The notes beneath the pieces are model-generated. The model searched no databases. It saw only the letters and a list, made by a program, of their open reading frames with translations, and was not told the origin of the DNA. DNA of 64,000 nt from an uncultured Rubrobacteraceae bacterium (GTDB lineage: Bacteria > Actinomycetota > Rubrobacteria > Rubrobacterales > Rubrobacteraceae): the NCBI GenBank assembly GCA_902806085.1, contig CADCVH010000108.1, positions 1 through 64,000 on the forward strand. The letters run 5' to 3'. The translations under genes were made by a program, and so were the position numbers. Each line of letters begins with the position of its first letter. Within the stretch, counting starts at the first letter, position 1. Below are positions 45,680-51,606 of the stretch, in pieces.

Positions 45680-46561
45680 CTACCGGACCACCTCTACCGC
45701 CGCCGGTTCGATGCGGAAGGCCATCGGCAGGTGCCCCCACACCTCGCCGTCTATCTGCACCGGGACGCGCGCGGCGCGGCCGGCCGGGGGCTCGGCGAAG
45801 ACGCTGCCGGACTTGAACGACTTCATCGTGCCGTCCAGCGGGCTCTTCGCCAGGATGCGGGCCAGGACGTCGGGCCGCGCGAGTTGGCCCACCTTCTCGA
45901 CGAGGACGACCTCGAGGCCGCCGCTCGTCAAGGAGGCGTCCTCGGCCGTCTCGAACTCTCCGCCGTAGTGGCGGCAGTTGGCGATGATGGCGAACTGGGC
46001 CACGTGGGTTGTATACCCGTCCAAGATCCGCAGTTCCGGCCGGTCGCCCCTGAGGTACACCTTGAGCGCGACGAGCGGGAATGCGAGCGACCTGAGGTAA
46101 CGCTTGAGGCGCGGGCCCACCTCCTTCACGACGTCGGCGTCGAAGCCGATGCCGGCCATGCAGGCGAAGCGCCGCCCGGTCCCGTCCTCGTCTATGGCCA
46201 CCCCGATGTCCATCCGGAACGTGGCGCCGGCAAGTATTCTCTGGCAGGCTTCCCCCGGCTCCAGCGGCAGCCCGAGCTCCCGCGCCAGCACGTTCGCCGT
46301 GCCGAGCGGCAGGATGCCCAGAGTGGCGCCTTCGGAGAGGCCGTTCAGGACCTCGTTCACCGTCCCGTCGCCCCCGGCGGCGATCACGAGCCGGCCGCCG
46401 GCCGCGGCCGCGAGCTGTGTGGCGTGGTCCGGGCGCTCGGTGTTCAGCACCTCGACCGTGAGGCCGCCGGCGCGCAACGTTTCGGCGAAGCCCTCCAGGT
46501 AGCCCTCGTCCCCGGCGCTCCCCGAGTTGGGGTTGCCGATAATGACCGCCCCCGTCGTCAT
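45680..46561 (-). CDS. Diacylglycerol/lipid kinase family protein
   Basis: 293 residues. The ATP-binding catalytic motif is GGDGTVNEVLNG, with the N-terminal NPNSG and ILPLGTANVLARELGLP. It phosphorylates diacylglycerol or a related lipid (YegS/DgkB-type). ATG 46561 is the family-like start; no strong ribosome site is seen. Confidence 0.88.
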   Translation of the reverse strand: MTTGAVIIGNPNSGSAGDEGYLEGFAETLRAGGLTVEVLNTERPDHATQLAAAAGGRLVIAAGGDGTVNEVLNGLSEGATLGILPLGTANVLARELGLPLEPGEACQRILAGATFRMDIGVAIDEDGTGRRFACMAGIGFDADVVKEVGPRLKRYLRSLAFPLVALKVYLRGDRPELRILDGYTTHVAQFAIIANCRHYGGEFETAEDASLTSGGLEVVLVEKVGQLARPDVLARILAKSPLDGTMKSFKSGSVFAEPPAGRAARVPVQIDGEVWGHLPMAFRIEPAAVEVVR

Positions 46562-46656
46562 GCCGGGGGCGCCCCCCGTTTCGGGCGATACCGCGTCGTG
46601 GCGAACCGTGCCGTCCCCACCCGTCCCGGCGCCCTTCCCCGACGAAACGACGGGGT

Positions 46657-47334
46657 TCAGCCTTGCCTGGTGTGGGTGTGCGGGGGCACAGTGGGGCCCT
46701 CGGAGGGCTGTATCAGGACCCAGCCCGGGCCCTCGAAGGCGAGCTGGAAGGTCTCCCCGGAGTCGCGCCCGAGGAAGGTGTTGAAGGAGACGTCGCTCTT
46801 GACGCGGGTGCGAACCCCGCCGCTCCACGCTATGGCAGAGTCGGGGTCGGCGGAGGTGGGGGTGGAGGTGTCCAACAAGACGGGGTCGCCCTGGGCGGTG
46901 ACGGCGACCTTGCCGGTGCCGTGCAGGACCACGTTGAACGCCCCGCCGGCGAGCCTCCCGGCGCCCGCGAGGGGGACGATGTCCCAGTCCACGCCCTCCT
47001 CGAAGGCCAGGATGTTGTCCCCGTTGACCGTCATCGTCTCGCCGTCGAGGTCGAGGATCATGATCTTGCGGGCGCTGTGCGCCAGAAAGACGTCCCCGGT
47101 CCCCCCGGCTACCATCAGGTCCACGCCCTCGCCGGTGAGGGCCTTCTTGAAGAACCTGCCGAGGCCCCCGCCCTTGTGGTCGAAGCGCACCCCGCCCTGG
47201 TAGGCGACCATCGAACCGAGCTTCGCCTGCACCGAGTTGCCTTCCAGCCTGACCTTCAGGAGCGACGAGTTCTGCAGGGTGAAGGTGCCGCTCGGGGTGA
47301 CCTCCTTGAACTGGTTCAGGTTCGTCTCGCTCAT
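46657..47334 (-). CDS. AIM24-family protein
   Basis: 225 residues from ATG 47334, with GGAGGG 7 nt upstream. A repetitive beta-rich AIM24/TIGR00266-type fold (VRLEGNSVQAKLGSMVAYQG, FFKKALTGEGVDLMVAGGTGDVFLA). The family's molecular role is unsettled. It heads toward the lipid kinase gene on the same strand. Confidence 0.85.
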   Translation of the reverse strand: MSETNLNQFKEVTPSGTFTLQNSSLLKVRLEGNSVQAKLGSMVAYQGGVRFDHKGGGLGRFFKKALTGEGVDLMVAGGTGDVFLAHSARKIMILDLDGETMTVNGDNILAFEEGVDWDIVPLAGAGRLAGGAFNVVLHGTGKVAVTAQGDPVLLDTSTPTSADPDSAIAWSGGVRTRVKSDVSFNTFLGRDSGETFQLAFEGPGWVLIQPSEGPTVPPHTHTRQG

Positions 47335-47420
47335 GAATCCGCCCTCCAATAGGTGGTCGTGCTCGGTGGTCGTGCCCATCAACGATCCGACCACCGGATG
47401 CGGACCCGGTGGTCGTGGTT

Positions 47421-47540
47421 TTACATCATCCGGGCGACGGCCAGCCCCGCGACGGTCAGTATTAGCATCACGGACATCAGGCACCCGATGGGCACGACCA
47501 CGCAACACCCGCGCGAGTTGCCCCGCCTCCAGGGAATCAT
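47421..47540 (-). CDS. Tiny membrane protein (39 residues)
   Basis: ATG 47540 is preceded by GAGGAGG at good spacing. The product is a short basic start, a Cys pair, then one helix (VVVPIGCLMSVMLILTVAG). It shares the V-P-x-G-C-L plus hydrophobic pattern with the 33-residue protein at 49565-49666. It is in the same orientation as the surrounding cluster. Confidence 0.65.
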   Translation of the reverse strand: MIPWRRGNSRGCCVVVPIGCLMSVMLILTVAGLAVARMM

Positions 47541-47573
47541 CTATCCTCCTCGAAAGGATCCTCCCGAGGGGCC

Positions 47574-48527
47574 TTACTGTTGCTTGAGTCCCTGGTTCTC
47601 GGCCTCCTGCTGGGCCGCGCCCTGGGCCTCCTCTGCCACCCGCTGGACCCTCTGCTGGGCGTCCTGGGCCTTCTCCTGGGCCTTCTCCACGACGGTGTCG
47701 CGGGCCTCGCCCATGACCTCGTGCTCCTTGGCGGTCTCGGGGATGGCGAGGCCTATCGCCGCCCCGGCCCCGATGGCCAGCGCCCCGACGGTGAGGGGGT
47801 TCTCGTGCAGCATCCTCTGGAACCCGCTGCCGGCCCGTCCGGCCTGCTGCCGGGCCCGGCTGCCGAGCTGGCCCGCCTTTTCGCGCGTCTGGCTGCCGAG
47901 GTCGCTCGCCCCGCCCTTGGCGCGGCCCGCGAGGTCCCCCGCCTTGTCCTGGGCCTGGGTGGCGGTCTCCCCGACCCTGTCCCTGGCGCGTCCGAGGGCC
48001 TCGCCGGCCGAGGAGCTGTCGTTCCCCTCGTACCCGTCGTCGAGCGGGTACTCGCGGGCGACGGGGGCGTACTCGTTGGTGGGGGTACGGTAACGGCTGA
48101 CGTCGTCCCGGTAATGCGGCTGCGCCTGGTTCTGCTGGCGCGCGCTCATCAGGAGCCAGCCGAGGCCGATGCCCGTAAGGGCGGCCGGCAGGGGGTTGGA
48201 CCTGACGGTATCCACTACGCCCGACCTTGCTTCCCTGGCTCTACCCACGGTTGCCTCCTTGACCCTGTCCTTCGCCTGGTCCTTGAGGTTCTGCGGGGAG
48301 AGCCTCTCCTGGATGGCGTCGACGGTCTCGCTCATGTCTGCCCTGGTGCGTTCGATCTCGACCCTGGTCACCTCGACCCGGTCGACTCCCACCTCGTCGG
48401 CTTCCGTCCCGCCGTCGACCACGGGGTCCCTCACCGCGTCCGGGTCGAAGGCGTCGGTGGCCGGGTCGAACCCCGGGGTACCGCCGCCTAGCGGGTCTCG
48501 TCCTACCGCGTCTGGTCTTTGATCCAT
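47574..48527 (-). CDS. DUF3618-containing membrane/coiled-coil protein
   Basis: 317 residues from ATG 48527 (AGGAGG 7 nt upstream). The DUF3618 block is RVEIERTRADMSETVDAIQERLSPQNLKD. A short helix (LPAALTGIGLGWLLMS) and a second near 260 (PLTVGALAIGAGAAIGLAI) bracket long Gln/Ala/Arg-rich coiled coil resembling LEA-type repeats. It overlaps the holin-like gene by 25 bp. The cluster suggests a stress-envelope role, unproven. Confidence 0.8.
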   Translation of the reverse strand: MDQRPDAVGRDPLGGGTPGFDPATDAFDPDAVRDPVVDGGTEADEVGVDRVEVTRVEIERTRADMSETVDAIQERLSPQNLKDQAKDRVKEATVGRAREARSGVVDTVRSNPLPAALTGIGLGWLLMSARQQNQAQPHYRDDVSRYRTPTNEYAPVAREYPLDDGYEGNDSSSAGEALGRARDRVGETATQAQDKAGDLAGRAKGGASDLGSQTREKAGQLGSRARQQAGRAGSGFQRMLHENPLTVGALAIGAGAAIGLAIPETAKEHEVMGEARDTVVEKAQEKAQDAQQRVQRVAEEAQGAAQQEAENQGLKQQ

Positions 48528-48901
48528 TGCCCGTCCTCCTTTAGCGTCTCTATCGTCTGCTGGGGCGCGATGTTCTCCTGTTTGAGGGCGTCTAGGCCCT
48601 TCTTGACGAGGAAGTAGCCCACGCCTACCATCACGAGCCCGACCAGGAGCGCCGCGAGCCACAGCGGCAGGAAGGTGTCCAGCACCACGATGACCGCGGC
48701 GAGTATCGCCAACAGCCCCGCGTAGGCCACGGCGCCCCCCGCCGCCAGAAAGCCCACGTCCTTGCCGACCCGGGAGGCCTTCTCGCTCATCTCGGTCTTG
48801 GCGAGGTCCACCTCCTGGCGCACGAGCGTGGAGGTCTCCTGCGCGAGCTCCGAGAAGAGCTCCCCGAGCGAACGGTCGTCCTTACCGTTACTGCCCTGCA
48901 C
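48503..48901 (-). CDS. Phage-holin-III-like (DUF1469) membrane protein
   Basis: 132 residues: an N-terminal amphipathic helix (LGELFSELAQETSTLVRQEVDLAKTEM) and two membrane helices. This pattern is the chromosomal actinobacterial holin-superfamily III type, usually next to DUF3618, as here. No phage genes are nearby, so it is not a lysis gene. Confidence 0.85.
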   Translation of the reverse strand: MQGSNGKDDRSLGELFSELAQETSTLVRQEVDLAKTEMSEKASRVGKDVGFLAAGGAVAYAGLLAILAAVIVVLDTFLPLWLAALLVGLVMVGVGYFLVKKGLDALKQENIAPQQTIETLKEDGQWIKDQTR

Positions 48902-48910
48902 CGGAACCTC

Positions 48911-49477
48911 CTACACTCCCCGGGGGGACACGGGACGGTCCACCACGTCCGCGGGCTGACCGGCTACCGAGGGGCGCTCGGTGACCGTGGTGCGCCCCGT
49001 CGTCGTGGCGTAGTCGTCGCCCGGGGGGAGCGCCGCGACCGGCTGGCCGTTGCCCCCGGAGGACGCCTCCTGGGATGAGCTCTTCAGAAAACGGGCGCCG
49101 AGGAAACCGAGCGCCAGGGCGCCGCCCAGGAAGAGCGCCGGCCTGTTCCGCGCGAAGCCGCGCGCCTCGTTAACCATCTCGTCCACGTCCGTCTCGCGCA
49201 GGTAGCCGGCGGTCCGCTCGACCCCGTCCGAGGCCTTGTCCGCGTACTCGGCGACCGGCCCCTGGCCCTGCTTGCGCAACTGCTGGGCGGTCTCCCTGAG
49301 CGCCGTCTGTATCGGCGTCAGCCTCTGGGCAGCCTCGTGCTTCTGGTTGGCGAGCTGCGACTTGACCTGCTCGCCGCCCCGGGTCGCAAGCTCTCCGGCC
49401 TGCTGCCGGGCCTGCCGGGACAATTGCTGCCCCTGCTGCTTGGCCTGCTCTTTTGCCGCGCCTGGATCTCTCTCCAC
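48911..49477 (-). CDS. Coiled-coil membrane-anchored hypothetical protein
   Basis: 188 residues from GTG 49477 (AAGGAGAA upstream). The first 65 residues are Gln/Ala/Arg-rich coiled coil, followed by a single helix (RPALFLGGALALGFLGARFL) and a disordered Thr/Pro-rich tail. It resembles the neighbouring DUF3618 protein's repeat style and starts the same operon. Confidence 0.7.
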   Translation of the reverse strand: MERDPGAAKEQAKQQGQQLSRQARQQAGELATRGGEQVKSQLANQKHEAAQRLTPIQTALRETAQQLRKQGQGPVAEYADKASDGVERTAGYLRETDVDEMVNEARGFARNRPALFLGGALALGFLGARFLKSSSQEASSGGNGQPVAALPPGDDYATTTGRTTVTERPSVAGQPADVVDRPVSPRGV

Positions 49478-49564
49478 GGTTCTTCTCCTTCCGATGGCTT
49501 CCTACCACTTACGGACCAACGAACGCTATCTTTTCCCCGTACCCCCGGTTTAGAACGGGAGCAC

Positions 49565-49666
49565 TTAGAAAAGGAGCAAGACGAGGTTCGCGAGCACGGT
49601 CAGGCCCACGCTCAGGACCACGCTGATCAGCACCCAGAACAAGCATCCTCCGGGAACGCGTATCAC
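49565..49666 (-). CDS. Tiny membrane protein (33 residues)
   Basis: GTG 49666 with AGGAGAGAGG about 8-12 nt upstream. After IRVPGGC the chain is one continuous helix (FWVLISVVLSVGLTVLANL, then VLLLF). It parallels the 39-residue protein 2 kb downstream and lies 87 bp upstream of the coiled-coil gene. Confidence 0.65.
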   Translation of the reverse strand: MIRVPGGCLFWVLISVVLSVGLTVLANLVLLLF

Positions 49667-49781: not shown

Positions 49782-50045
49782 CTAGCCGTCCTGGGGGTAG
49801 CGGGAACCGGCCTTGGCCAGCCCGCGGCTGATCATGTAGCCGACCGTCAGGTAGGTGACGTACCTCCACGCCGGGTCCGCGCCGAAGCTGTTGTCGACGA
49901 TCGCGGAGGCGATGAGCACGCCGAGCACCGCCAGCACGTAGACGATCAACTCGGTGGTCTTGAACGACGCCTTGGTCTCGGTGCCCTTCAAACCCTCGTC
50001 CCTCTCGCGAGTGTGGACCTTGGGTGCAGCCTGCTGCTGAGTCAT
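49782..50045 (-). CDS. Small two-helix membrane protein
   Basis: 87 residues from ATG 50045 (AAGGAG 4 nt upstream). A charged N-terminus leads to helices at TTELIVYVLAVLGVLIASAI and YVTYLTVGYMISRGLA. No family recognised. A promoter is visible upstream; it probably opens the cluster that continues to 46657. Confidence 0.7.
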   Translation of the reverse strand: MTQQQAAPKVHTRERDEGLKGTETKASFKTTELIVYVLAVLGVLIASAIVDNSFGADPAWRYVTYLTVGYMISRGLAKAGSRYPQDG

Positions 50046-50102: not shown

Positions 50103-50130
50103 AACATACGGCATAATCAGGTATAGTCAA
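50103..50130 (-). promoter_or_regulatory. Promoter of the 49.8-kb membrane-protein gene
   Basis: TTGACT (50130-50125), 16-bp spacer, TATGTT (50108-50103) on the minus strand, within an AT-rich divergent region. Confidence 0.5.
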
Positions 50131-50243
50131 CTAAAGATCGTTAAAATAAAGTCTAAATGCATCGAAAGGTGTAACGGCTGCACCACAAGGTGTGTCGTAG
50201 GGCAACGACGGGCACGCAGACGGGCGTGGGGAAGGGGTTGGGG

Positions 50244-51005
50244 TTGGCAACGTCTCCGGAGAACGGACAGGGAATCGAGTTGCTCGGCGCGGAGGACGTT
50301 GCGGGGCTTCTCGGGGTAAAGGAGAGCACGATCTGGCGCTGGTGCCGGGAGGGGCGGCTGCCGGCCATGAAGGTCGGCAAGCACTGGCGCATCAGGCGCA
50401 AGGCTTTGGAGGACTTTCTGAGGGAGAAGGAGCGCTCGACCACGCTCGTTGGGCATTTGGGGTCCTTCTTGCGGGTGCCGGACAACGTGCTCGCCATCGC
50501 CCAGAACCTCGACTTGCTGCACCGGGTGGACGCGGCGTTTTTCCGGGTTGGCGAGGCGCAGGACGGGCTGCTGGTAAAGTTTTACGGCGGTGAAGACAGC
50601 CCGCCGGAGGAGTTGATCGCCCAGTTCGAGAGAAACGGCCTTGCGGCCGGGCGTCTCCAGCGGGAGGGGCGTCTCCTCATGAGGCCCGAGGAAGACCCTG
50701 TGGACGGGCGGGAGGACCGGCTCGGCCGGCTCATCGAGGAGGGGGTGGGCGAGGGGCGTACCGTGTGGGCCTCCTTCGACTGGGTTTTGCGGGTCGATCT
50801 GGAGACGGCCCTAGAGCAACAGGAGCGGCTCACCGAGATCGTCGGCGAGCGTCAGCTAGTCGTCAAGACGGCCGCTCTCGAAGAGGCGATCGACCAGTGG
50901 TCGTCTTCGTCGCTCAGGCGGGCGCAATCCTCGCATTCCGGCACCATCCTGGCCTACGAGTCCGGGCTGTCCCTGAGCCGCGCGACGCCGATGCCATCTT
51001 CCTGA
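50244..51005 (+). CDS. Excisionase-type HTH fused to a MEDS-like sensor domain
   Basis: About 253 residues from TTG 50244 (GGAAGGGG upstream; the frame is open from 50190). The N-terminus is an HTH_17 domain (LLGAEDVAGLLGVKESTIWRWCREGRLPAMKVGKHWRI). The rest (VWASFDWVLRVDLETALEQQERL, then QLVVKTAALEEAIDQW) resembles MEDS domains, proposed to sense small one-carbon compounds. It is a likely transcription regulator, divergent from the membrane cluster and convergent with the sigma factor gene. Confidence 0.72.
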   Translation: MATSPENGQGIELLGAEDVAGLLGVKESTIWRWCREGRLPAMKVGKHWRIRRKALEDFLREKERSTTLVGHLGSFLRVPDNVLAIAQNLDLLHRVDAAFFRVGEAQDGLLVKFYGGEDSPPEELIAQFERNGLAAGRLQREGRLLMRPEEDPVDGREDRLGRLIEEGVGEGRTVWASFDWVLRVDLETALEQQERLTEIVGERQLVVKTAALEEAIDQWSSSSLRRAQSSHSGTILAYESGLSLSRATPMPSS

Positions 51006-51018
51006 GCCGCCACGGCCG

Positions 51019-51606
51019 CTAGACCGCCGCCGGCTCTCCCGGGGGCCCGAGTCGGTTCCGGATCTTCCGGAGTCCCAATCGCAGCCGGCCTTTCACCGTG
51101 CCGAGCGGCAGGCCGAGCATCCCGGCGATCTCGGCCTGCGTGTGGCCCGAGAAGTGCGCCAGCTCCACGACCGCCCGCTGCTCCGTCGGGAGGGCGCCCA
51201 TAGCCTCGCGTACCTGCCCAAGCAAGACGCCCTGCCACGCCTCCGCGAAGGCCTCGCAGGGCTGCGACTTTTCCGCCTCGCTTCTGGCCTTCTCCCGGGT
51301 CCTTCGCCGGGTGGCGCCGGAGCGGAGCCGGTCTATCCCGCGGTTGTGGACGATGGAGAGGACCCAGGTCCTCACGCTGCCGCGACCCACCCGGTAGGTG
51401 CCCGCCGACCGCCACGCCTTCAGGAAGGCGTCCTGGGTCAGGTCCTCCGCGGCTTGCCTCCCGCCCGTCAGGCGGTAGGCAAGCAAGTAGGCGGCGCGGG
51501 CGTGGCGGTCGTAGAGCGCCGCGAAGGCGAGGGCGTCGCCTTCCGCCACCAGTGGCATCAGATCTTCATCCGAAAAGAGCGGATACTCTTTTCTCCTACC
51601 GGTCAC
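51019..51606 (-). CDS. ECF-family RNA polymerase sigma factor
   Basis: 195 residues. Region 2 includes AAEDLTQDAFLKAWRSAGTY and VRTWVLSIVHNRGIDRLR; region 4 is ALPTEQRAVVELAHFSGHTQAEIAGMLGLPLGTVKGRLR-like. GTG 51606 is favoured by a TACGAT hexamer ending 6 nt upstream (leaderless). No anti-sigma gene adjoins it, since the convergent neighbour is the HTH-MEDS gene. Confidence 0.9.
   Translation of the reverse strand: MTGRRKEYPLFSDEDLMPLVAEGDALAFAALYDRHARAAYLLAYRLTGGRQAAEDLTQDAFLKAWRSAGTYRVGRGSVRTWVLSIVHNRGIDRLRSGATRRRTREKARSEAEKSQPCEAFAEAWQGVLLGQVREAMGALPTEQRAVVELAHFSGHTQAEIAGMLGLPLGTVKGRLRLGLRKIRNRLGPPGEPAAV

Follow-up and report, generated by a model that had tools for sequence, protein, structure and literature searches.

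Two new families of small single-helix membrane proteins, smA and smB, associated with a Holin-X/DUF3618 cassette in Rubrobacteraceae

Results

Two short frames in the window, the 64,000-nucleotide stretch of an uncultured Rubrobacteraceae bacterium analysed here (G000:C108 of a 4.4 Mb genome; among named relatives, uncultured Rubrobacteraceae and Rubrobacter MAGs are the nearest), are genuine small-protein genes and represent new families of small single-helix membrane proteins, one of them unexpectedly widespread. Both lie on the minus strand: smA (47421..47540; ATG start, MIPWRRGNSRGCCVVVPIGCLMSVMLILTVAGLAVARMM) encodes 39 residues, and smB (49565..49666; GTG start, MIRVPGGCLFWVLISVVLSVGLTVLANLVLLLF) encodes 33 residues with the signature GC-x6-S-x3-S-x2-LT-x3-N. 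The two frames were found exactly where the initial annotation had placed them, and its view of them as overlooked small proteins inside a multi-part membrane cassette is borne out, as frames, starts, length and synteny are all conserved in relatives.

Codon analysis of nine smA sequences gave a pN/pS of 0.45 in the true frame (column-shuffle mean 0.97), and that of eight smB sequences gave 0.36 (shuffle mean 0.89). None of 300 column shuffles reached a value as low as that of either gene, and the other frames ranged from 0.5 to 2.9. The synonymous pattern whose absence in relatives had been named beforehand as grounds for dismissing the frames is thus present, and smB family copies from outgroups are likewise under purifying selection (pN/pS 0.44). 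The start codons align across relatives at the same position, as ATG, GTG or TTG, with purine-rich sites upstream. Strong ribosome sites had been claimed for both genes; this holds for smA, which has a strong Shine-Dalgarno sequence (ttcgaggaggatag-ATG), whereas the site of smB (gaggagagaggcgggttgag-GTG) is weaker than claimed, its start position being conserved nonetheless. A genome of high G+C content contains many spurious frames, but the reading of smA and smB as chance frames without a product is contradicted by their conservation, codon-level selection, start-site conservation and synteny, and its likelihood is negligible.

Homologs of smA occur in same-genus and same-family genomes (E 1e-13 to 1e-5), and its profile, in a search confined to Rubrobacteraceae, matched 13 of the 39 genomes of that family (E < 1e-8). 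Homologs of smB were also found in same-genus and same-family genomes, the best at E 2e-14 and the others weaker. Three same-genus genomes show neither gene. Neither protein matched any family in Pfam or NCBIfam, and no convincing match was obtained among solved structures.

Each protein has one transmembrane helix (best 19-mer Kyte-Doolittle score 2.59 for smA and 2.53 for smB). Because their positive charge is only or mainly N-terminal, the positive-inside rule predicts an N-in topology for both. C8 of smB precedes the hydrophobic stretch (12-30), while C12 and C13 of smA stand at the very start of theirs and C20 lies inside it, after PIG and without lipobox context. The cysteines are at the predicted cytoplasmic edge, which makes lipoprotein and periplasmic disulfide readings unlikely. 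The hint of lipidation in the initial annotation fails on the position of the cysteines N-terminal to the helix and on the absence of a lipobox ([LVI][ASTVI][GAS]C) after a hydrophobic stretch; its hint of disulfide pairing, in a periplasmic form, was rejected as unlikely on residue position together with the predicted topology.

The minus strand reads, in order, twoTM, smB, a coil anchor, Holin-X, DUF3618, smA, AIM24 and a diacylglycerol-kinase-like gene, with a divergent HTH_17 regulator upstream. The first gene, twoTM (49782..50045), encodes an 87-aa two-helix protein (KTTELIVY...YMISRGLAKAGSR) that has no Pfam entry and recurs in many actinobacterial families. Downstream of smB, the coiled-coil/amphipathic anchor protein (48911..49477) has a G-rich transmembrane segment, and the membrane protein of the Holin-X/YqjE family (48503..48901) matches PF07332 at E 3.6e-34 (117.7 bits against a cut-off of 28.4). 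The DUF3618 gene (47574..48527; PF12277, 1.4e-12), which overlaps that of Holin-X, encodes a protein with a C-terminal ENP and a glycine-rich tail. The AIM24 gene (46657..47334; PF01987, 4.3e-35) follows smA, and the diacylglycerol-kinase-like gene (45680..46594), named from its sequence outside any family scan, is a conserved 3' neighbour. As had been noted, the set lies on one strand, but the small pair brackets only coil-Holin-X-DUF3618 and does not, as proposed, mark the ends of the set, since twoTM and AIM24 lie outside. The helix-turn-helix regulator, on the plus strand at about 50220..51005 (exact start uncertain; 4.6e-17), is a conserved neighbour as well; the ECF sigma factor gene beyond it (51019-51606) was rejected as part of the system, not being syntenic with the cassette in relatives.

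Several other readings of these genes were discarded. The DUF3618 repeats had no LEA match in Pfam, against a LEA-type desiccation protein. Among PHROG lysis families the best match to the Holin-X protein was an Rz-like spanin (E 0.033) and none was a holin, nor was smB found in viral contigs, against a phage holin or phage origin. A search gave no match that would indicate a plasmid origin.

A sigma-70-like promoter, TTGACT-16-TATGTT (50103..50130, minus strand), lies in the intergenic region between the regulator and twoTM; on the strand of the operon it was the single promoter-like site. It overlaps a conserved block, TAGTTGACTATAC (50121-50133), of which the whole genome contains one copy. 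This block therefore looks like the cassette's own control site, and a wider regulon of the element was rejected on the same count. smA and smB are most likely co-transcribed with the cassette from this single promoter. Terminator-like sites were no more frequent than expected by chance. Between smA and AIM24, a 10-pair stem at 47388-47415 (CGACCACCGG...CCGGTGGTCG), with GGTGGTCGTG repeats nearby, is terminator-like on the plus strand only.

The order HTH|twoTM-smB-coil-Holin-X-DUF3618-(smB2)-smA is kept in G000, G002, G003 (on two contigs) and G006, and in part in G007, G024 and G030. The bracketed smB2 is a second smB-type gene (GGGG...GCAGRGCLFWI) between DUF3618 and smA in several relatives; it is absent from the window, where 33 bases separate the two genes. 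A link to AIM24 recurs too, with smB directly before it in G373 and G010 and smB2 before it in G007 (AIM24 loci L055, L113 and L047). When DUF3618 matches were sorted by eye into two types on their match ranges, smA and a smB-type gene were present in each of the ten Rubrobacteraceae genomes whose DUF3618 is of the long, cassette type, compared with 3 of 29 (smA) and 8 of 29 (smB-type) for the remaining genomes of the family (Fisher p 4.5e-7 and 7e-5, values that ignore shared ancestry and are descriptive only). The second, shorter type is almost universal in the family. Outside Rubrobacteraceae, G110 has coil-Holin-X (PF07332, 4e-36)-DUF3618 (PF12277, 1e-12)-smB, G246 has twoTM-smB, and G367 has twoTM, another gene and then smB; the core twoTM-coil-Holin-X-DUF3618 is also found in G203 of another family.

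Some loci depart from this arrangement. A degraded smB is present at L047:1522-1599, in the second cassette copy of G007, and a smB2 with an internal stop at L049:541-621 (G003:C209). In G004 (L042, G004:C469, 4638-5537) smB is immediately followed by smA in the absence of the coil-Holin-X-DUF3618 core, and twoTM is present as two partial copies, reflecting either a deletion or an assembly collapse.

The two families have distinct signatures. The core of smA, R-G-C-C-V-V-x-P-x-G-C-L, is followed by a helix with G32 and A36; C13, P17, G19, C20, L21, L28, G32 and A36 are invariant. In smB, family N-termini such as MRFGNxEVRPLGGG lead into the invariant core GC-x6-S-x3-S-x2-L-T-x3-N, and G6, G7, C8, S15, S19, L22, T23 and N27 are invariant in 19 sequences; the copy of G002 has no Cys. 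The VPxGCL motif described earlier is indeed present in both proteins, but the likeness is local and the kinship it was taken to imply is unsupported, a common origin being rejected by hhalign profile comparison (probability 8.5%). The conserved residues of smB fall on one stripe of the helix (conservation moment p 0.009), as is typical of helix-packing surfaces; the moment calculated from S, T and N only is not significant (p 0.08).

In a phylum sample of 396 genomes, the smB profile matched 20 genomes from 11 other families, with E values no worse than about 2e-6. When slightly relaxed, the signature picked out smB-type genes and no others from 650 kb of fetched DNA, and shuffled sequences gave no match; the loci had been chosen with the profile, so this test speaks to specificity only. 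smB supplies a sharp signature by which a new small-protein family can be recognised across about 12 actinobacterial families. Outside Rubrobacteraceae it is mostly a lone gene in unrelated neighbourhoods, and its function must therefore be at least partly independent of the cassette. In G032 and G034 (L114, L116), orphan smB2 genes adjoin BrkB (PF03631), with Asp23 (PF03780) nearby, as read from the domain scan of one of these genomes. Similarly, orphan smA genes in G022 and G030 stand alone after a LOR gene (PF04525; domains scanned in one of the two genomes). These smA-type genes (L052:6593-6733 and L054:6656-6787), outside any cassette, have an extra Cys (VPCGCL).

The settings of the genes also bear on two further explanations. 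A larger gene starts 85-90 bases downstream of each small frame, as would suit leader or arrest peptides whose translation controls that gene (coil or AIM24). Selection on the amino acids of the helix argues against this, as do family members whose downstream genes are unrelated and smB-type copies that precede different genes; we consider a leader role very improbable. A protein of about 30 aa with one hydrophobic helix, sometimes in two copies per cluster, also recalls the type I toxin of a toxin-antitoxin pair. Such a role for smB is highly unlikely given its conserved same-strand operon setting, its wide distribution with an invariant signature, and an antisense strand beside smB in which no promoter-like site was detected.

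Discussion

The core of the cassette has known counterparts. Holin-X and YqjE of E. coli belong to the same Pfam family, PF07332 (YqjE 75.8 bits), and the ENP and glycine-rich tail of the DUF3618 protein aligns with the tail anchor of YqjD (hhalign 86%), to which the coil protein shows a weak likeness (hhalign 15%). It is only in this tail that the DUF3618 protein resembles YqjD, its score against DUF883_C being 15 bits, below the cut-off of 27. As in the window, yqjC-yqjD-yqjE-yqjK of E. coli and PA3040-3042 of P. aeruginosa combine a tail-anchored amphipathic protein, followed by a PF07332 protein, with a third protein, under stress and stationary-phase regulation (PMC10746276, PMC11302039). 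In contrast to those operons, the DUF3618 and coil proteins here fall below the DUF883 cut-off, and smA, smB and twoTM are not annotated there. In E. coli, expression of yqjD depends on sigma-S, and its product recruits ribosomes to the membrane (PMC10746276); PA3040-3042 belongs to the envelope stress response (PMC11302039).

Within actinobacteria, two DUF3618/Holin-X cassettes of Actinoplanes rise strongly when sigma-H, which is homologous to a sigma factor for osmotic stress, is expressed (PMC11205660). In these cassettes, arranged as DUF4235-DUF3618-Holin-X-BrkB, DUF3618 likewise lies beside Holin-X in a membrane and osmotic-stress context, and BrkB is shared with the orphan smB2 loci of G032 and G034, but small proteins are not reported there (PMC11205660). 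Because the core resembles both yqjD-yqjE and these sigma-H-induced cassettes, a role of the cassette in envelope stress is plausible. This lends the initial annotation's idea of a stress system indirect support, drying or radiation as its specific trigger being conjecture. A literature search joining Rubrobacter and AIM24 returned nothing.

Small subunits of membrane complexes are established elsewhere. Examples are CydX, 37 aa long, which forms part of the cytochrome bd complex, and AcrZ, which binds AcrB in its membrane portion (PMC4325964, PMC7267776). Both have fewer than 50 aa and one helix, as do smA and smB, which are also under selection. The likeness is one of size and helix; unlike those subunits, smA and smB are outside any Pfam or NCBIfam family, their partner is only putative, and outside Rubrobacteraceae smB mostly occurs by itself.

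That smA and smB are genes, under selection and in conserved synteny, is shown by the results above. We put at about an even chance the favoured and most economical reading, in which they are co-transcribed with the YqjD/YqjE-like cassette and their single-pass products act inside the membrane as accessory subunits or tuners; topology, partners, stress trigger and co-transcription are here inferred. One promoter, facing the divergent HTH regulator, would drive the twoTM-coil-Holin-X-DUF3618 cassette and the small genes. With its predicted N-in orientation, smB could present a polar seam with i+4 spacing (C8...S15-S19-T23-N27) through which helices would pack, and its candidate partners would be the Holin-X helices or the glycine-rich anchors found in the DUF3618 and coil proteins. 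In this way smB may adjust how a membrane complex produced during envelope or stationary-phase stress is assembled.

The main competing explanation is that the two proteins are free-standing membrane modulators of stress that alter membrane potential or fluidity by themselves and are housed in the operon for co-regulation only. The 27-aa YohP of E. coli, which lowers membrane potential and fluidity, offers a precedent (PMC12719787), and the mostly solitary smB outside Rubrobacteraceae, the orphan smB-type copies by BrkB/Asp23 and the orphan smA by the LOR gene all fit. However, linkage to cassette parts recurs in at least three families and transmembrane residues are strictly invariant, which together suggest a specific protein partner, and we regard free-standing action as rather unlikely. 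Returning to accessory subunits, a broader version can be offered as a tentative proposal, which we doubt somewhat more than we believe: smB may be an uncatalogued phylum-wide actinobacterial family of membrane proteins of 30-50 residues, with an invariant GC-x6-S-x3-S-x2-LT-x3-N face inside the membrane, that supplies a general subunit to membrane complexes of envelope stress, the Holin-X/DUF3618 cassette among them; smA would then be a partner specific to Rubrobacteraceae, with conserved cysteines.

Although present in several actinobacterial families, the Holin-X/DUF3618 cassette has barely been studied, and small conserved proteins that family libraries lack could be among the pieces required for understanding or reconstituting it. 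The two-helix protein of the cassette also belongs to a family without a Pfam entry: twoTM (KTTEFxxY...GYMISRGLAKAGSR) was found in 25 of 396 actinobacterial genomes (for example at loci L190, L188 and L194), and G188 and G149 each carry three copies of it in one frame.
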